From a virus, in the IMG/VR virus record IMGVR_UViG_3300002242_000766, positions 5,129-26,355 of that record: 21,227 nucleotides of DNA; one strand, given 5' to 3'. The notes below the pieces were generated by a model. It saw nothing but the letters and a program-made list of their open reading frames with translations. It had not been told where the DNA came from and did no database searches. Shown here in pieces: positions 9,566 to 21,227 of the stretch. The position numbers and the translations under genes are program-made. How positions within the stretch are numbered: the stretch's first letter is position 1; each line of letters starts with the position of its first letter.

Positions 9566-9757
9566 ATGACAGACAAAATGGTCAGACTCAATGATTCAGT
9601 GGGCGCGGCAGCAGCAGACAGTTCCGCGTACCAGCAAAGAATCAAAGCGATTGCAAACATAAATAAACAAAAGCAGTCACAAAGTCAACTAGAATATCTG
9701 ATGATAAAAGTCAGAGGTCTAGAAGAAAGGATTGCAAAACTGGAAGGTTCTAAATAA
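9566..9757 (+). CDS. Small coiled-coil protein between baseplate and fibre genes
   Basis: A 63-residue protein (MTDKMVRLND...ERIAKLEGSK) starting one base after the TGA of the large baseplate gene and ending in TAATG shared with the fibre gene at 9757. The C-terminal half (QSQLEYLMIKVRGLEERIAK) has heptad-spaced hydrophobic residues and should form a coiled coil; the N-terminal half is Ala/Gln-rich and probably helical. An upstream in-frame ATG at 9512 is rejected because it would lie 53 bases inside the preceding gene and add a residue run unlike the rest. Tight coupling on both sides suggests a fibre-attachment or trimer-forming adaptor, but no family was recognised. Confidence 0.6.
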   Translation: MTDKMVRLNDSVGAAAADSSAYQQRIKAIANINKQKQSQSQLEYLMIKVRGLEERIAKLEGSK

Positions 9758-11331
9758 TGGCAACGATTTCACATGTAGTATCATCAGACACATTTTTGGC
9801 TTGGAGAACACGAACAAATGACCTGATTGATATTCTCAACATGCCTACTGTAGGTGTAGTGAATCAGTTGTCCACACGGGTTGACACATTCAACATTACC
9901 GATTCTGCTGGTGTTCATATAGGCTGTACAATTTCTGATAATGCGGACGGTACCGTGGCAGTGGCAGCAGGAGAGGCAATTTTACGCACAGCAAATAGCC
10001 CCACAGCAAGTATGGTTTCTGTTGAGGTATCGGCTATTGCTTCTGTTGCCTTGACAGACTTGACAACAAATTTCATTTATGTAGACTATAATGCAGGAAC
10101 ACCTACTATTTCAGTGACTACGCTAGACACAAACGTGAATGGTCGTAATATGGCAATGGTTGGCTATGTTCAGCGAGATGGTCTGAACCTGACTATATTG
10201 CAACTGGCAGGCAACGTAGGTGATTTTGAGAACACACTAACAAAACGCCTTCAGTTAGCGGATGGATTCAAAAAATCCGCTGGAGCAATATTATCTGAAC
10301 CTACTCCGTTACACTTGGCATTGACCGCAGGTGAATTTTATTATGGTGTAACAAAACTTCCCACACCAGCGTTTGACACATCGGGGGCATCAACCTTTGA
10401 ATATTACAGCAATTCAGGAACGTGGAACAAGAGTGTAGTTTCGGCGTTAAGCAACACTCAATATAACAACTCTAGTGTAGGTTTGGTAGCATTGACAGCA
10501 GGTTATTATAGGGTTGACTGGATTTATTTGAAAATTGGCACCAATGGCGTTATACCTTACGTTGTCATGGGTACTCAGGAACATTCCTCGCAAGTGGCGG
10601 CACAAAGTGAAACTCCACCGCAAAACATCCCTCCTCAACTCAAATATTTAGGTGTGCTGGTAGGACGTGCTATTATCATGCAAGGCAACCCTAACATTGT
10701 CGTTTTAGATAACGCACTCAATTCTCAGAACTTTGCTGCGTCTGTAGGTGTCACGTCATTTTCTGATGATACTTTTTCAGTTGTGGATAACATTGATGCA
10801 ACCAAGAAAGCAAACTTTCAAGCTGGCAATATTACACCAGCAACCACCAGAACCCTGACTATTCCCGATAAAAACGGGACCTTGCTGGTAGACTCAGAGT
10901 TTGCTGGTGTATATGCTGGTAGATTGACAAGGACTGCGGCAGGTTATGCGGCTATTAAGGATGTATTAAATGCAACAGTCAAACCTTCAGCAACAGACGA
11001 TTCTACCGCTGGTTTTGAAGTAGGATCTTTATGGGTGGACGTTATAGCAAACGCATTCTATATTTGTGTTGACGCCACAGCCACAGCAGCGGTATGGAAA
11101 TCATCAGGCATCGCGGCAGCACTAAATACATCTGGTTCATATACATACACTGCAGGAAAAGCTACAGCATCCAATATTGTTGATGTTAACGGAAACAATA
11201 TAGCCTACGCATACACCTACGATGCAGCAGGTAACATAAATACAGTAGCACAAACAATTGCAGGCGTAACCAGAACAACAACTTATACATACAATGCCGA
11301 CGGAACCGTGGCATCGTTTGTCACAGTATAA
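9757..11331 (+). CDS. Tail fibre protein with C-terminal YD-type repeats
   Basis: A 524-residue modular protein. Residues 5-30 (HVVSSDTFLAWRTRTNDLID) resemble the baseplate-attachment start seen in many myovirus fibres. A beta-rich stretch follows, with a domain at about 165-310 (LADGFKKSAGAILSEPTPLHL...EYYSNSGTWNKS) that accepts beads of aromatic and Gly residues. Residues 335-376 (DDTFSVVDNIDATKKANFQ, TRTLTIPDKNGTLL) are a common phage tail-fibre shaft module. SLWVDVIANAFYICVDATAT near 426-445 resembles small fibre domains with a Trp-Tyr-Cys pattern. The C-terminus holds two YD-type repeats (YTYDAAGNINT from 486, YTYNADGTVAS from 510), 24 residues apart. It is probably a long or short fibre that binds the host surface. 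TAATG overlap with the upstream coiled-coil gene. Confidence 0.75.
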   Translation: MATISHVVSSDTFLAWRTRTNDLIDILNMPTVGVVNQLSTRVDTFNITDSAGVHIGCTISDNADGTVAVAAGEAILRTANSPTASMVSVEVSAIASVALTDLTTNFIYVDYNAGTPTISVTTLDTNVNGRNMAMVGYVQRDGLNLTILQLAGNVGDFENTLTKRLQLADGFKKSAGAILSEPTPLHLALTAGEFYYGVTKLPTPAFDTSGASTFEYYSNSGTWNKSVVSALSNTQYNNSSVGLVALTAGYYRVDWIYLKIGTNGVIPYVVMGTQEHSSQVAAQSETPPQNIPPQLKYLGVLVGRAIIMQGNPNIVVLDNALNSQNFAASVGVTSFSDDTFSVVDNIDATKKANFQAGNITPATTRTLTIPDKNGTLLVDSEFAGVYAGRLTRTAAGYAAIKDVLNATVKPSATDDSTAGFEVGSLWVDVIANAFYICVDATATAAVWKSSGIAAALNTSGSYTYTAGKATASNIVDVNGNNIAYAYTYDAAGNINTVAQTIAGVTRTTTYTYNADGTVASFVTV

Positions 11332-13782: not shown

Positions 13783-13965
13783 ATGACGGACAGAACAATA
13801 GATGGGTACGCAGAACAGTCGGATTTTCCTGCAGATGATGCAGAAGTAGTTACTCTATGTTCCGTAATCTACCAATGGTTTACAACACGACATTCACTAA
13901 TGCTGATCTGGAGGCTAAGTTTATATGAATATAAACCTATTAGTTACTACGCCGCTATCGTTTAG
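13783..13965 (+). CDS. Small ORF with strong ribosome site, possibly frame-broken
   Basis: A 60-codon ORF with the clearest ribosome site in this part (AAGGAG, 13771-13776). Residues 1-22 (MTDRTIDGYAEQSDFPADDA) are acidic and read like a normal soluble protein. After about base 13850 the product turns into a hydrophobic, Leu/Ile/Tyr-rich run and overlaps the next gene by 41 bases. In the -1 frame, a reading open from 13839 contains MFRNLPMVYNTTFTNADLE and ends at TGA 13926-13928, forming an ATGA junction with the gene at 13925. The second reading looks more natural, so the true gene may run 13783 to 13928 across a -1 shift. No canonical slippery heptamer is visible. Function unknown. Confidence 0.4.
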   Translation: MTDRTIDGYAEQSDFPADDAEVVTLCSVIYQWFTTRHSLMLIWRLSLYEYKPISYYAAIV

Positions 13966-14395
13966 CGTAGCACTACCCACCAACCCTACTGCAACAGAGC
14001 AGGCAGTACATGATGCTCTTGATTCGCTTGGGGCTGAATGGGTAGCGGCAGGAGAATCTGCTACACGTCGGCTATGGTGTGTTATAACGCAATCTAACGA
14101 CCTTCCTGCCATGCGTGCTGCTATTGCTAATTTTGGCTTACCTATGACTGTCATAGCAGCGCAGAACGCGCACAAGACGCCTGTATTGGATGCTAATGGT
14201 GCGCCAGTATTAGACGTTGATAATAATCCTATGATGGAATTAGTAGTGCATGATACTACCACTAAAGCCACGCTCTTAAATTACATGCCCGACGTTGTTA
14301 CGTTTGACCCTATTACGATGAAAGAGACTGGCAGAACGCCAGCAACAGCCGTTAGCTTACCTGTTTGGGGTGGGCATGAGGCTTGGGTGGTGTAA
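13925..14395 (+). CDS. Hypothetical protein in accessory block
   Basis: A 156-residue protein preceded by GGAGG at 13910-13914 with a ten-base spacer. The start reads MNINLLVTTPLSFSVALPTN, then a helical Ala-rich section (ATEQAVHDALDSLGAEWVAAG). A middle DANGAPVLDVDNNPMMEL segment reads like a short Asp/Asn-rich repeat (VLDANGAP, VLDVDNNP). The C-terminus has PVWGGHEAWVV. It has no membrane segment, Cys pair or recognisable catalytic motif. Codons favour CTA/CTT for Leu and CGT for Arg, unlike the GCA/TTG-rich structural genes before it. It sits between fibre and lysis genes, where small accessory or host-takeover genes are common. Function unknown. Confidence 0.55.
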   Translation: MNINLLVTTPLSFSVALPTNPTATEQAVHDALDSLGAEWVAAGESATRRLWCVITQSNDLPAMRAAIANFGLPMTVIAAQNAHKTPVLDANGAPVLDVDNNPMMELVVHDTTTKATLLNYMPDVVTFDPITMKETGRTPATAVSLPVWGGHEAWVV

Positions 14396-16540: not shown

Positions 16541-16754
16541 TATACTAAAATTTGTGAGGGAGTGGCGCATTGTTACCATCGCCTTTCTCGTATTTTCCTG
16601 CTCACTGGCATATAACATTACGCAATGGTTTATGAATGTGAAAGATCCTAACAATAGCCAAGGCGCGTTTGCATCTGCAGTTGTGTTGGCACTGGTTGGT
16701 GTTGGCAAATATTGGATGGAAACGAAAGCAAACAAACAAGATGAAGATATTTGA
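16533..16754 (+). CDS. Two-TM holin candidate
   Basis: A 73-residue protein with two hydrophobic segments (13-30: IVTIAFLVFSCSLAYNIT; 44-61: GAFASAVVLALVGVGKYW), a hydrophilic loop and a short charged tail (KANKQDEDI): class II holin topology. Placement right after the endolysin strengthens this. The start is a TTG at 16533, supported by GAGG (16523-16526) with a six-base spacer and an eight-base overlap with the amidase gene; the next in-frame ATG would remove the first TM. An alternative GTG gives residue 8. 'FLVFSC' could be misread as a lipobox, but F at the -2 position and the second TM argue against a lipoprotein. It overlaps the next gene by 14 bases. Confidence 0.65.
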   Translation: MNNILKFVREWRIVTIAFLVFSCSLAYNITQWFMNVKDPNNSQGAFASAVVLALVGVGKYWMETKANKQDEDI

Positions 16755-17637
16755 AAAAATAAACTTCAAAGATGTACTACTAATTGCTCTCATAGGATGG
16801 TTCGCGTGGACTACATATTTTAATGTTGCTACTCCTACCATAAAACATGGCACAGGAGCGCACAGAATCGTTTCTGGCGCGTCCCAGGGAGAAACGAATG
16901 TTGTAAGTGCGGTAGACAACAAAACGCTGCCTATGGCGATTGCAGCCGATGTCAAATCAGAGACAGTGAAAGCACACGCAAACATTGTATCTGATGTAAA
17001 TGGTAATTGGTCTTCACGAAAAAATGAAGCAGGGATAAACGTCAAGAAATATGGCGTGAAGAAAAAACAGCTTAAATGGGTTGATAAAGCCACTGGCAAG
17101 GAAATGCCTATTGGCGTGACGTTGTATTCTCCTAAAAAGGATGCAGCAGGAAAAGATCCGTGGGTGTCTAAAGCGTATGACATGGAATTTAAGACAGAAG
17201 TGGTGCGCAGTATTGACAGGACAGGTGGTATCCACAATCGTGTTGCAGTATCAGCACATCCTAAAAACTTGAAAGGGTATAGCGATAAAGATTTTCCTAT
17301 CAATATAGATTTGAAAAATACAAAATTCATTGAAGTTCAAAACAAAAAGTATGCTTGGTCATGGTGGAACCCTACACTTTCTATGGGATTGGCTGCGTCA
17401 ACAAATTATTCTTATATGTTGAAATATAACTTTTTAAACTATGGCTATTCGGATCAGCTTCCAGTATGGCAATTCCTTTCACCCACAGCTTTTCTCAACA
17501 GCAACCATTTCAGCTATGGGTTAGAAATCGCCAGTTATAATGTAGGCGAAATAGTGCCCGTGATAGAGGACCTTCATGTTGGTGTAGGTGTTACCAAAGA
17601 CAAAGAAGCATTTATGAGCATCACCTCAGTATTCTGA
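16741..17637 (+). CDS. N-terminally anchored phage protein, unknown family
   Basis: A 298-residue protein with one membrane segment at about 11-27 (DVLLIALIGWFAWTTYF), with positive residues before it, suggesting a cytoplasmic N-terminus and a long periplasmic part. The periplasmic region has a charged, beta-rich middle (KKYGVKKKQLKWVDKATGKE) and an end rich in alternating beta/Tyr-Gly (NPTLSMGLAASTNYSYMLKY, SYGLEIASYNVGEIVPV) that resembles short outer-membrane-barrel-like strands. The start is ATG 16741 because an upstream ATG in frame would lie within the holin gene. There is no clear ribosome site, so coupling to the holin is likely. It is not a recognisable spanin: no coiled coil and no lipobox. 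A role in envelope disruption or lysis is only suggested by position. Confidence 0.5.
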   Translation: MKIFEKINFKDVLLIALIGWFAWTTYFNVATPTIKHGTGAHRIVSGASQGETNVVSAVDNKTLPMAIAADVKSETVKAHANIVSDVNGNWSSRKNEAGINVKKYGVKKKQLKWVDKATGKEMPIGVTLYSPKKDAAGKDPWVSKAYDMEFKTEVVRSIDRTGGIHNRVAVSAHPKNLKGYSDKDFPINIDLKNTKFIEVQNKKYAWSWWNPTLSMGLAASTNYSYMLKYNFLNYGYSDQLPVWQFLSPTAFLNSNHFSYGLEIASYNVGEIVPVIEDLHVGVGVTKDKEAFMSITSVF

Positions 17638-17643
17638 TAAATA
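17636..17643 (+). promoter_or_regulatory. GATAAATA, weak late-promoter-like site
   Basis: GATAAATA overlaps the stop of the anchored protein gene and precedes the 31-residue ORF by five bases. It differs from TATAAATA by one base. If used, transcription would start at or inside the small ORF and mainly serve the 847-residue adhesin gene. Not diagnostic. Confidence 0.25.
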
Positions 17644-17648
17644 ATAGC

Positions 17649-17744
17649 ATGACTACTAAAATAAGAAATGTCACAACACCCAATGATGACGTTAGCTTCA
17701 TAATGGGCAGTTATACAGTATCAACGAGTGGTAAAATAGTGTAA
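17649..17744 (+). CDS. 31-residue ORF coupled to the adhesin gene
   Basis: A 31-residue ORF (MTTKIRNVTTPNDDVSFIMG, ending TSGKIV) that ends in TAATG, sharing one base with the start of the 847-residue gene. It fills the only gap between the anchored protein and the adhesin gene. It has normal codon use and no ribosome site beyond AT-rich sequence. It might be a small structural protein or a leader whose translation controls the large gene. No family was recognised. Confidence 0.4.
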   Translation: MTTKIRNVTTPNDDVSFIMGSYTVSTSGKIV

Positions 17745-20287
17745 TGGCTTTAATAACATCTAATGGTATTGGTGGTGGACTTTCTTCAGCAACAACTAGT
17801 TGGGCTGGTGGTGTTGTGCCTGTGCTTGGCGATAAAGTAACTATTGCGGCTGGTGATATTATAGAGCTAAACGCTAGCCACGCTTGGGGAGATGACACTT
17901 CAACAGCAATAACAGTCAACGGAACGCTTAAAGCTTCACGATTAGTTTCTCAAACTCTTACTTGCAGAGGACAGTTAATTACAAATGGTGTTCTTGACTA
18001 TGGTCAAGTCGGTAATGTTATACCACTAGGCGTAGTTGCTACAATACTACTTAATGATTCGGCTGTACCGTGGGATGCTAAATGGGGTCACACAGTAAAC
18101 GGTGGAGCAAGTTTTTATTTTAATGGATACGAAAAAACAACCAATACAGTTTTAACCTCAGATGCTATTGGTTTAACTTCATTTAATGTTGCTAATGCTA
18201 CAAACTGGCAAGTTGGGGATGAGATTTGTTTTATCTCGACATCAGGTTCAGGCAATACAGGCAATAGAGAAAAAAGAATAATCAGTTCTATTGTTGGTAA
18301 CACAATAACATTAACTCTTGCTTTGACATTTACTCACTTAACCGGTGGAGGAGTAGGTAATCTAACTAAAAACGTTAGGATTCAAACAGCAACAACATTC
18401 AAATCTTATCAGGATATTCAAAATACTACTGCTACTCCTATTGGTCAACGCCAGATCAGGCAAATAAGTACTTTAAATTTAGGCGCTAATTCAGGCAACG
18501 GTAAATATGGTGGCATTTGGTTAAGAAAGATAAATGGCAGTGTTCAAGGTACATATCTTTCCCTTAGTGATATTGTTTGTGAAAACCCTGGGTTTTATGC
18601 CCTAGACTTATATGCTATGCCTGACCGTATAACCATAAATAACTTGCTTATTTACTCAGAAGTTTGGCAGAATGGAATTTGGATAAGACAAGGTCAAATT
18701 TTAACTCTTAATAATCCATTATTTATTGGGTCTGGTACGGGTATTAACTCCTCGTGGTCTCATGGTGGAGTTGGTTGTATTATCAATGGTGGTCAGTTCT
18801 CATCATCAACTGTATTCCTTCATTCTTCTGCTCAGGGGTTTATATTTAATAATACTAAATTTTTAAGCACTTATCAAGCGATTAATTTCTCGTGGGGTTC
18901 GCAGGCTGTATTTAACAATGTAGATTTTGGCGATCTTACCACAAGCATTTTTAGGTGTTTTAATACAGGCGTTAATGCTTTAACTAACCCAATAATGAAC
19001 AACTGTAATTTCAATTACGTATCTGAGTTATTTGTTCAGACAAGTTTAATTAATGCTAATGACGGTTTTATTGCTACAATAGTCAACATGAATGGCGATT
19101 TAACTAAACAAATGTTAGCTACAAACGCAGGCTATATTGAAAGAGACAACGTCCTTTTTAATAAGAGCACTAGTTCAATTAAATTTAGACCTATTGTTGC
19201 TAACAAACCACTTCAGCATAATTATGAAATATCAGCTACAGGCGGCAAACAAACAACCGTAATTGGTTATTTAAGATTTGATGCTGTATACGGAACAGCA
19301 ACTCCACCCACAATAACATTGTCAGGGCTTGGCGGCGTATCTAGTACGTTTACTGCTCCTGCTACAGCAAATGTTTGGCATAAATTTGTATTATCCACAA
19401 CGCCAACTAGATCAGGAGCTTTGACTCTTAATGTTAGCGGTTCGTCAACAGCAACTACAGGGGCATTTTATCTTGATGGTGTTGCGTTTGCTCCGTTTGT
19501 TACAAACGCAAGACATTATGGATACGTATTTGATGAAGCTAATCCTTCTCGAACAGTTAATCAAAACATTACAAAAACAGAAGCTAATGCTGGACTTATA
19601 ACAGGTATTGCTGTAGATAATATAGCTAAAACTATAACAATAAGCGCACCAGTAACTAAAGAAGATCTATATGACTACACACAATATAACGCGCAATTAT
19701 CATCTAATTTAGCTAGTGAAGTACCCATAACCACTGGAGATGGAAATAACTTTACACTCACAACAGGTTGGAAGATCATAACCAACTCAGCAATCATAGG
19801 AGGAATAAATCTAACAGGTAATGTAGATTTATCCGCTGTCGTAAATCTTAGTAATCACAATATCACTGGTTCTGTTACATTCACAACAGCTGGTACATAT
19901 AATTTAACAGATTCATCAATAAGCACAGTTATAAATACAAGTGTTGGTAATGTAATTATCAACGTTATAGGTACAACGGTTATAACTACTAATAGCGGAC
20001 CTAGTATAACTATTCAGTCTTCAGCAATTCTCACACTAACAGGTTTGAACGCTGGCTCAATAGTAGATATATATGACAATGAGATTGTGGATATAGGTAA
20101 TAACAATACTTTACTGGCAAGCACAAATAATTCAACTACTACATTCACCTATACTCATAATGGAACTGCTAATGCTGTTAGAATACAAGTTATACATCCA
20201 CTTTATAAGGAAATCATTCAAGATTTTACATTAGGTAATACAAATCAATCACTTCCAATAACACAGGTACTAGAAACTAATGACTAA
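17744..20287 (+). CDS. Large beta-helix adhesin/tail protein with G8-like start
   Basis: An 847-residue protein. Residues 19-70 (WAGGVVPVLGDKVTIAAG, then IELNASHAWGDD...LKASRL) match the G8-domain layout 'W--G-vP--gd-V-I--G--v-l-' of CEMIP-type and bacterial adhesin proteins. Residues about 145-215 (NATNWQVGDEICFIST, GNLTKNVRIQT) extend it with the 'W-vGDeI...H...g-vgNLt-Nv' continuation. Residues 215-490 are short-turn strands with Asn/Ser repeats, as in right-handed parallel beta-helices. Residues about 490-610 (LRFDAVYGTATPPTITLSG, then a Gly-rich sandwich) look like a jelly-roll domain. The C-terminal ~220 residues are another beta-rich region ending SLPITQVLETND. It probably binds or processes surface glycans. 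Ala and Leu codons favour GCT and CTT/TTA/CTA (8 of 11 Ala in the first 100 codons are GCT). Overlaps the next gene by eight bases. Confidence 0.7.
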   Translation: MALITSNGIGGGLSSATTSWAGGVVPVLGDKVTIAAGDIIELNASHAWGDDTSTAITVNGTLKASRLVSQTLTCRGQLITNGVLDYGQVGNVIPLGVVATILLNDSAVPWDAKWGHTVNGGASFYFNGYEKTTNTVLTSDAIGLTSFNVANATNWQVGDEICFISTSGSGNTGNREKRIISSIVGNTITLTLALTFTHLTGGGVGNLTKNVRIQTATTFKSYQDIQNTTATPIGQRQIRQISTLNLGANSGNGKYGGIWLRKINGSVQGTYLSLSDIVCENPGFYALDLYAMPDRITINNLLIYSEVWQNGIWIRQGQILTLNNPLFIGSGTGINSSWSHGGVGCIINGGQFSSSTVFLHSSAQGFIFNNTKFLSTYQAINFSWGSQAVFNNVDFGDLTTSIFRCFNTGVNALTNPIMNNCNFNYVSELFVQTSLINANDGFIATIVNMNGDLTKQMLATNAGYIERDNVLFNKSTSSIKFRPIVANKPLQHNYEISATGGKQTTVIGYLRFDAVYGTATPPTITLSGLGGVSSTFTAPATANVWHKFVLSTTPTRSGALTLNVSGSSTATTGAFYLDGVAFAPFVTNARHYGYVFDEANPSRTVNQNITKTEANAGLITGIAVDNIAKTITISAPVTKEDLYDYTQYNAQLSSNLASEVPITTGDGNNFTLTTGWKIITNSAIIGGINLTGNVDLSAVVNLSNHNITGSVTFTTAGTYNLTDSSISTVINTSVGNVIINVIGTTVITTNSGPSITIQSSAILTLTGLNAGSIVDIYDNEIVDIGNNNTLLASTNNSTTTFTYTHNGTANAVRIQVIHPLYKEIIQDFTLGNTNQSLPITQVLETND

Positions 20288-20621
20288 AGAACTAATAAAA
20301 TTACAAAATGCGCATGTAACACAACACACAAATGGTCACATTAAAAGCGAGTGGTCAGTTGAGGAAAATGAGTCCAATGACGTTTTAGGACTATTTCCTT
20401 CTAACATTAACGAAGAAACAATGTTCAAGATACTAGATTTCTCTAAGAAATTTGAACTTGAAGCCTTTAATGTTGGTATTTCTCATGGTAAAAAAATCAC
20501 AGTAAAGGTTTATGATGAAAAGATTAAACAATTCAATTCAGTAGTGGAAGAGTTGCGAAACGAAAATGAAAGACTAGCAAGTGCTCTTGATAATGAGCAA
20601 AACAGAGGAGAAGAGATTTAA
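20280..20621 (+). CDS. Hypothetical protein with C-terminal coiled coil
   Basis: A 113-residue protein that starts inside the adhesin gene (eight-base overlap) and ends in TAATG shared with the next gene. The first 60 residues are mixed (GHIKSEWSVEENESNDVLGL), with a short FKILDFSKKFELEAFN segment. Residues about 80-108 (KIKQFNSVVEELRNENERLA) form an acidic coiled coil. A role as a chaperone, adaptor or connector for the adhesin is plausible from coupling; no family was recognised. Confidence 0.55.
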   Translation: MTKELIKLQNAHVTQHTNGHIKSEWSVEENESNDVLGLFPSNINEETMFKILDFSKKFELEAFNVGISHGKKITVKVYDEKIKQFNSVVEELRNENERLASALDNEQNRGEEI

Positions 20622-20797
20622 TGGAAGTAAAAGTAGATAAAAGCAATAAAGTAATAACAGTTGATAAAGATTATTCACTCAATTTGTTAAACAGAGAGTT
20701 AAAAATCCAAGGAGTGGAAGCTATTAAACTTCCTACGTCCGATACAGGTTTTGAACTAAAGCCCGAATGGAAAATTAAAATAAAAGGAGTTAAATAG
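20621..20797 (+). CDS. 58-residue hypothetical protein
   Basis: A 58-residue ORF (MEVKVDKSNKVITVDKDYSL, ending KIKIKGVK), missed by simple length filters. Its ATG overlaps the stop of the preceding gene (TAATG), with GAGGAG at 20605-20610 as ribosome site. It is Lys/Val-rich with alternating beta-strand pattern and no membrane segment. It lies between two probable virion genes and is likely co-translated. Function unknown. Confidence 0.55.
   Translation: MEVKVDKSNKVITVDKDYSLNLLNRELKIQGVEAIKLPTSDTGFELKPEWKIKIKGVK
20783..20789 (+). promoter_or_regulatory. Ribosome site AAAGGAG for the last gene
   Basis: AAAGGAG with a ten-base spacer to the ATG at 20800. Supports the chosen start of the partial gene that follows. 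Confidence 0.5.
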
Positions 20798-20799
20798 TA

Positions 20800-21227
20800 A
20801 TGGCACTAATTGACTTATCCAATTATTCAACATCATTATATCAAGCATCTTCTAGCGCAGGCTTAGATGGTAATGTATATTTTGACCGGGTAGCAGGGAC
20901 TGTGCAGTTCTTTACGGCTACAACTAATCCGACCCTTAACCTAACAACACATGGTGGAGCAGCTGGCGCTCCAAACCCACTAATTGAAGTAGATGGGTTG
21001 AAATTTGAAGCATTGTATGCTTTTGAAAACCAAGAAAGACGACTTGATAGTACACTTCGTCAATATGATAGAAGGACTTCTGGTACATTTAAGTTTGGTG
21101 GTGCGTACAACTTCATCAACGGCAGAACCCCACTCGCTAACACAGACCGTGCGTTGATTCGTGGCTCTGGTTGGAATGAGTATGATGCTGCTGGTGTATC
21201 TCAGCGAATCTGGTTTGGTGTTAAGGG
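20800..21227 (+). CDS. Probable virion structural protein (3' partial)
   Basis: Open from ATG 20800 to the window end: 142 codons of a longer protein. It begins MALIDLSNYSTSLYQASSSA, followed by VYFDRVAGTVQFFTATTN. Further on come LKFEALYAFENQERRLDSTL and a segment GTFKFGGAYNFINGR, then RALIRGSGWNEYDAAGVSQR. This layout resembles proteins I recall from large marine myovirus tail regions, where they are called virion structural proteins; I cannot name the family. It is not an enzyme by any visible motif. The 3' end is outside the window, so length and C-terminal domains are unknown. Confidence 0.55.
   Translation, partial: MALIDLSNYSTSLYQASSSAGLDGNVYFDRVAGTVQFFTATTNPTLNLTTHGGAAGAPNPLIEVDGLKFEALYAFENQERRLDSTLRQYDRRTSGTFKFGGAYNFINGRTPLANTDRALIRGSGWNEYDAAGVSQRIWFGVK

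Follow-up and report, generated by a model that had tools for sequence, protein, structure and literature searches.

A TMEM2-like G8/beta-helix spike gene with foreign codon usage in a probably acquired virion cassette of a VrlC/DUF4815-type phage

Our analysis showed that the 847-aa open reading frame (ORF) beginning at position 17744 of the window, i.e. of the whole 21,227-nucleotide stretch of DNA analysed here (bases 5129-26355 of a 26,355-base IMG/VR virus record), has a codon usage foreign to the rest of the record, that the corresponding site of a sister phage is free of the cassette to which this ORF belongs, and that the same gene order occurs in unrelated phages. The origin we consider probable is that a phage of the VrlC/DUF4815 type acquired a virion-adhesin cassette from another phage type by recombination, the cassette comprising a TMEM2-like spike, small proteins and a protein that we call D (Table 1).

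The window carries baseplate-type genes, together with a gene for a 1689-aa VrlC/DUF4815 protein, fibre genes and an endolysin gene, followed by the 847-aa ORF. Among 50,697 annotated phage records, 1516 had a VrlC match, the one of widest coverage being that in Desulfovibrio phage 7757/SRB7757. The phage is of the VrlC/DUF4815 type and, judging by its relatives, contractile-tailed. A promoter and terminator scan gave no excess over shuffles. The 31-aa ORF in front of the G8 gene is possibly a leader or a coupled small gene.

Table 1. Coordinates of the features discussed (positions in the window; residues are those of the 847-aa protein)
Feature	Position	Strand	Description
Fibre genes	starts 9757 and 11342		
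Amidase_3 endolysin	start 15968		Pfam match
Backbone/cassette breakpoint (putative)	17637..17649	.	placed by the end of the L063 alignment and the codon change
31-aa ORF	17649..17744	+	TAA overlaps the G8 start codon (TAATG); direct reading
847-aa ORF	17744..20287	+	putative G8/beta-helix virion adhesin; foreign codon usage
Residues 1-220	17744..18403	+	divergent G8 start, by profiles, with small beta-sandwich insert (~130-210); block conserved in phage relatives
Residues 17-450	17792..19093	+	predicted right-handed beta-helix; middle divergent among relatives
Residues 460-585	19121..19498	+	predicted beta-sandwich, jelly-roll-like by eye; pLDDT ~72-87 at 480-580; conserved in L016, L019 and L017
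Residues 583-847	19490..20284	+	C-terminal part; last ~100 residues (from 19979) form the module common to genes beside D
113-aa cassette gene	20280..20621	+	overlaps the G8 stop; codon score between core and G8 models
58-aa ORF	20621..20797	+	overlaps the preceding stop
D, N-terminal 142 aa	20800..21225	+	putative virion protein related to Syn5 gp53; truncated by the contig end

A different codon preference of the 847-aa ORF had been proposed in a sequence-only reading of this DNA, on the basis of alanine codons in the first ~100 codons (8 GCT, 2 GCA and 1 GCG, against 7 GCA, 4 GCT, 1 GCC and 1 GCG at the start of the fibre gene at 9757). The fibre counts were exact; those of the ORF require 110 codons, exactly 100 codons holding 7 GCT, 2 GCA and 1 GCG, and the 100-codon contrast is not significant as stand-alone evidence (Fisher p=0.10). 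The preference itself held over the whole gene and proved larger than had been stated: alanine is encoded by 40 GCT, 14 GCA, 4 GCG and 1 GCC, compared with 91, 250, 67 and 60, respectively, in 13 other genes (p=1e-13), and none of 257 overlapping core blocks of 100 codons (blocks with at least 8 Ala) reaches 70% GCT. Leucine codons are shifted as well, TTG accounting for 5 of 66 in the ORF and 130 of 381 in the 13 genes. When all synonymous families are taken together, codon choice in the ORF differs from that in the remainder of the record (chi2 197.5, 41 df, p=2e-22); the 22 other upstream genes or segments of at least 100 codons stay at or below 1.79 per df. In cross-validation a separate codon model was favoured in all eight blocks (~106 codons each) of the ORF and was negative for all 24 upstream genes or segments, the gene at 13925 lying nearly at zero. 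The shift is visible only in such distribution tests, the log-likelihood of the ORF under the core codon table being ordinary and uninformative. Uniform codon usage, the refuting outcome named beforehand, was looked for and did not occur.

The change in composition extends beyond the G8 gene. The 4-mer distance is 0.34-0.41 in the last four segments of the window versus at most 0.274 in the listed segments ending by 18872. Taken singly, the ORFs at 20280 and 20800 show no departure from core codons (chi2 of 0.83 and 0.95 per df). Pooled with the 58-aa ORF between them, they score +1.8 bits, against -88 to -32 for 34 core blocks of equal size and expectations of -50 +/- 12 bits for core and +47 +/- 11 bits for G8-like sequence; the pooled ORFs are therefore not core-like and not clearly G8-like, and fit neither codon model. 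A hint at the donor comes from the codon tables of 60 loci, among which those of L018, holding the closest G8 relative, and L020, holding the closest D, fit the 847-aa ORF best, a ranking in which each table includes the locus's own genes and which is explained in part by GC content.

The edge of this foreign unit was located with the help of the sole sister found, the 142,377-bp VrlC-type contig L063; a scan of viral contigs with the single 16738 sequence gave no relative, and a search with an alignment returned only this sister, which was already known. L063 has a sheath and shows the same order as the window (VrlC, N-terminus of the 9757-type fibre, endolysin and 16738 homologue), with 65% for the endolysin, 46% for the 16738 homologue and 39% for VrlC. 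The two 16738 homologues align to their last residue (..SVF) and for ~10 bp past the stop, then differ, and it is between 16738 and the G8 ORF that codon usage shifts. Directly after the homologue, L063 carries genes matching phrog_1645 and phrog_1084, then head-tail connector genes and terminase, and the whole contig gave no match to D or G8. The foreign unit of the window starts at most ~12 bp past the preceding stop and reaches the contig end; because this 26-kb metagenomic fragment stops within the cassette, the far edge is unseen. The swapped cassette that had been suggested is well supported by codons and 4-mers, by the sister locus without the cassette and by the recurrence of this gene neighbourhood in other phages, but the unit is larger than the gene alone.

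The G8 domain has eight conserved glycines in paired strands. A G8-like start had been noted for the 847-aa protein, and G8 is indeed the only Pfam family that it matches, although at 16.4 bits, below the gathering cut-off of 22.9. Its phage relatives likewise score below threshold (L018, 18.6; L016, 20.3; L008, 16.6; L019, 19.0 bits) or, for L017, give no Pfam G8 match, and in five of the six proteins (window plus five phage relatives) the match begins at profile position 1. Homology was established by profiles: that of the five phage N-termini aligned with that of three cellular G8 proteins (from Leptolyngbyaceae, Planctomycetaceae and a Pirellulales MAG) at 99.6% probability (E=2.9e-24, 201 columns), and one of the cellular proteins, L012, passes Pfam G8 (PF10162) at 57.9 bits. 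Plasmid-borne proteins annotated as G8 domain-containing were also among the tblastn matches. Judged by these profiles, the N-terminus of the 847-aa protein is a divergent G8. Alignments were needed at this point; the single G8 protein sequence found no relative in the viral contig scan and no match among sequences of solved structures, and profiles gave chance-level matches only in the latter.

The beta-helix that had been proposed to follow the G8 start is supported by an AlphaFold monomer model of modest confidence (mean pLDDT 63.5, pTM 0.48, 8 sequences; locally low at residues 215-269 and 425-456) and by its structural matches. The best solved-structure match is the ectodomain of the human cell-surface protein TMEM2 (8C6I; Z 17.4, rmsd 3.8 A over 394 residues, model residues 17-450), followed by phage tailspikes at Z 14.6 and below. 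In TMEM2 (PMC10206443) a single uninterrupted beta-helix begins with the G8 region, which is no separate module, and a small beta-sandwich is inserted. The insert near residues 130-210 of the modelled phage protein, which resembles a domain of 9n71 (27% over 77 residues), may be comparable to that of TMEM2, and G8 in the phage protein is best regarded as forming the helix cap together with the first rungs. TMEM2/CEMIP-type proteins (8C6I and the bacterial G8 proteins in L011, L012 and L014) likewise have a G8 start that passes into one right-handed beta-helix. Unlike these, the phage protein has a G8 score below the cut-off, no match to the CEMIP beta-helix family (PF24606) up to E 1 (L012 scores 53 bits), no lectin-like domain by family search, and a phage C-terminal module instead. 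The same N-terminal G8-like block stands at residue 1 in Curvibacter phage PCA1 (UZZ64504.1; L008) and in the IMG/VR contigs L016, L017, L018 and L019. Residues 1-214 are 48% identical to L018, and the best segments of the five give 29-48% identity; where long enough, these proteins also have a divergent middle, the beta-sandwich and an RHYG-type C-terminal part. They differ from the window protein in their phage backbones and divergent middles, and D was seen only in L016 of the five.

Next after the G8 gene of L016 comes a relative of the ORF at 20800 of the window (34% over 135 aa), and an alignment of these two served as the query for D. Relatives were found on 41 viral contigs, near-identical contigs (L021-L023; L033/L034; L035-L037) being counted separately and L058 being the same contig as L016; the D of L020 is 71% identical to that of the window over 140 aa. 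The gene directly upstream of D ends in the ~100-residue C-terminal module of the G8 protein in 36 of these 41 loci, 6 of which supplied seeds for the module profile. Of the others, L030 and L048 have too little upstream sequence, the ORF of L056 by eye breaks off inside the module, L060 has a weak match further downstream, and L059 has no upstream match. The module mostly sits on bodies other than the G8 one: when 27 module-bearing proteins, among them those of three reference phages and of the window, were clustered by BLAST, their bodies formed 8 groups. Relatives of the 113-aa gene were detected by tblastn upstream of D in 10 of the 41 loci, and the 58-aa ORF gave no Pfam match. Searches of PHROGs, Pfam and NCBIfam gave nothing useful for D, whose model (pLDDT 89) best matches in the PDB at Z 8.3 over 88 residues of a C-terminal Ig/CnaB-like part. 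The phages concerned are of other types. VrlC was absent from all 34 records that carry D or G8, and 11 of them have a phrog_1216 portal. A sheath search, positive in SRB7757 and L063, was negative in 25 of 25 D- or G8-type records and in L002; most records being fragments, this absence carries little weight. The annotated relatives of D are gp53 of Syn5, a structural protein of S-TIP28 and one protein in a record titled Siphoviridae.

Two arrangements near D go further than that of the window. In L020 (4075-7565) and L033 (3746-7716), D is directly preceded by a tandem pair of spike genes that both end in the C-terminal module but differ in their bodies; the two products might be adhesins sharing one base. 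Downstream of D lies a gene of ~200 aa (L020 9775-10407 and relatives), with matches in 32 loci of the analysis set, that looks like a further cassette member; in the window's phage it would lie beyond the contig end.

Both partners of the cassette were compared with proteins of Syn5 and S-TIP28. The D proteins of L022 (22.8% over 90%, E 2e-14) and L039 (E 4e-23) match Syn5 gp53, as does the window D directly (26% over 84 aa, E 1e-5), and a fold search of BFVD with D placed second (E 8e-7) a structural protein of Syn5 that, at 622 aa, is as long as gp54. The C-terminal part of the G8 protein matches S-TIP28_57, which occupies the gp54 position, at 32% over 299 columns (E 4e-21). As in the cassette, the paired genes are adjacent in Syn5 (gp53/gp54) and S-TIP28 (S-TIP28_56/57), S-TIP28_57 and Syn5 gp53/54 being structural proteins by annotation only; unlike in these phages, the gene order is reversed in the window cassette, and the gp54 body is unrelated in BLAST clustering. 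Raytcheva et al. are said to have found in 2014 that gp53 and gp54 build the horn of Syn5, and to our knowledge the purpose of this horn is unexplained.

Other explanations bear on the origin of the cassette as well as on its role. The contig could be an assembly chimera of a VrlC-type phage and a co-occurring cassette-bearing phage, with no transfer involved, as might be suspected from a composition that shifts at one point and stays shifted to near the contig end, and from the finding of D in none of 7 other VrlC-type records and not in L063 either. It is the main technical doubt about the transfer, though we regard it as improbable. The change falls within ~12 bp after a stop and right before an intact series of overlapping genes, whereas most random joins would interrupt a gene. 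Nor did we see a repeat that might have led to a mis-join, since the junction shares no exact word of 18 bases or more with the compared loci or the rest of the window (three matches at 15). In addition, the D genes of L059 and L060 adjoin phrog_1084/phrog_1645-type genes, the very types present at the sister's site. Less probable still is that the gene is native and its codons differ through selection on expression or through its repetitive beta-helix. A codon shift is by itself no proof of transfer, but the tests were run within amino acids, other virion genes, the fibre genes at 9757 and 11342 (0.86 and 1.58 per df) among them, are near core codon usage, L063 is without the gene, and the neighbouring ORFs, pooled, are shifted too.

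As to its role, the spike might be a head appendage similar to the Syn5 horn rather than a tail fibre, in which case the cassette would be a mobile horn cassette with an exchangeable tip. In favour of this are the matches of D relatives to gp53 and of the G8 C-terminus to S-TIP28_57, together with the role ascribed to gp53 and gp54 in horn building. It is also favoured by the phrog_1645 match of the L063 gene at the cassette site, a family classed under head and packaging, and by the position of the Syn5 horn at the vertex opposite the tail (PMC10575957). Against it, D in L060 has a central tail fibre J gene close by, the window's virion genes ahead of its lysis genes are those of baseplate and fibres, and an unseeded C-terminal profile of non-cyanophage proteins matched Syn5 gp54 itself weakly (E 0.0084). 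We think a head location, the main alternative to the tail or baseplate, possible but doubtful. The beta-helix could also be an active capsule or exopolysaccharide depolymerase, i.e. a tailspike enzyme, a proposal to which we would give about the same limited credence. Below TMEM2, the list of structural matches consists largely of phage tailspikes, of which many are depolymerases, and of GH110 enzymes (Z 10.5-14.6). The tailspikes (CBA120 TSP1/2/4, HK620 and Klebsiella depolymerases; Z 11-14.6) share the fold and the proximity of virion genes. A common fold does not demonstrate activity, however, and no enzyme family was matched in Pfam, PHROGs or NCBIfam, nor was PF24606, which the cellular relative does match. 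Unlike those tailspikes, the phage protein has no sequence family match, and the G8 start and D partner were not seen in the tailspikes compared here. The hyaluronidase activity of TMEM2 itself is disputed in the literature (PMC10206443).

We thus favour acquisition of an adhesin cassette by the VrlC/DUF4815-type phage. Recombination at the gene boundary just after the lysis genes would have brought in the cassette, which would encode a long spike, composed of a G8-type cap, a TMEM2-like beta-helix, a beta-sandwich and the common C-terminal module, along with small proteins and the gp53 relative D. D and the common module may form a base docking on the virion, from which the variable N-terminal body would project and bind surface polysaccharide, and a swap of the body would then change what the virion sticks to. 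The spike, a putative glycan adhesin as had been suggested, would be mainly a binder and might conceivably sit on the tail or baseplate. It is possible, though we propose this only tentatively, that the Syn5 horn exemplifies a widespread type of exchangeable appendage of virions, with a gp53-like base and a gp54-like protein that has a constant C-terminal module and a swapped body, that moves among short-, long- and contractile-tailed phages and is tipped in the window version with a TMEM2-like G8 beta-helix. If so, the horn would be an adhesin platform.

Exchange of adhesion modules between morphologically distinct phages has been described for Alteromonas phages A5 and V22, in which host-recognition modules are common to a schitovirus and a myovirus, as the abstract has it (PMC10579305). 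Those modules consist of different fibre and chaperone genes, and the abstract mentions no G8 and no D. Module sharing between phage types is thus already published; literature searches at the level of titles gave no phage protein for the G8 domain and no account of such a cassette for Syn5 gp53/gp54 or the horn. The cassette links the G8/TMEM2-type beta-helix in phages, a constant partner with interchangeable bodies, and the Syn5 horn, and its constant-partner design is named by none of the family libraries scanned. For TMEM2, a human protein with debated enzyme activity, it provides a simple homologue from a phage, and it allows one to test directly whether horn-type proteins are adhesins and how frequently adhesins pass from one phage morphotype to another. 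If the transfer is real, surface attachments are traded between unrelated phage types.

Several further genes of the window deserve mention. The gene at 13925-14395, without a match in Pfam and PHROG searches, is the second most deviant by codons (1.79 per df, GC 0.476) and is possibly another import. The 299-aa product of 16738-17637, conserved in L063, adjoins the endolysin and looks membrane-anchored; it had no Pfam, PHROG or useful NCBIfam match and may be a new protein of lysis or of the envelope. Tandem-like repeats (VNQQVGGSV/VTGNVAGNV) of the kind present in a gp5-type baseplate spike occur in the open ORF with which the window begins (positions 3-323). Finally, the N-terminal 378 residues of the fibre encoded at 9757-11331 match the 1425-aa fibre of L063 (57% and 50%), and in place of the L063-type end its C-terminus carries YD-like repeats (..YTYDAAGNINT..YTYNADGTVAS..) with a visual resemblance to those of Syn5 gp52, encoded by the gene directly before gp53.
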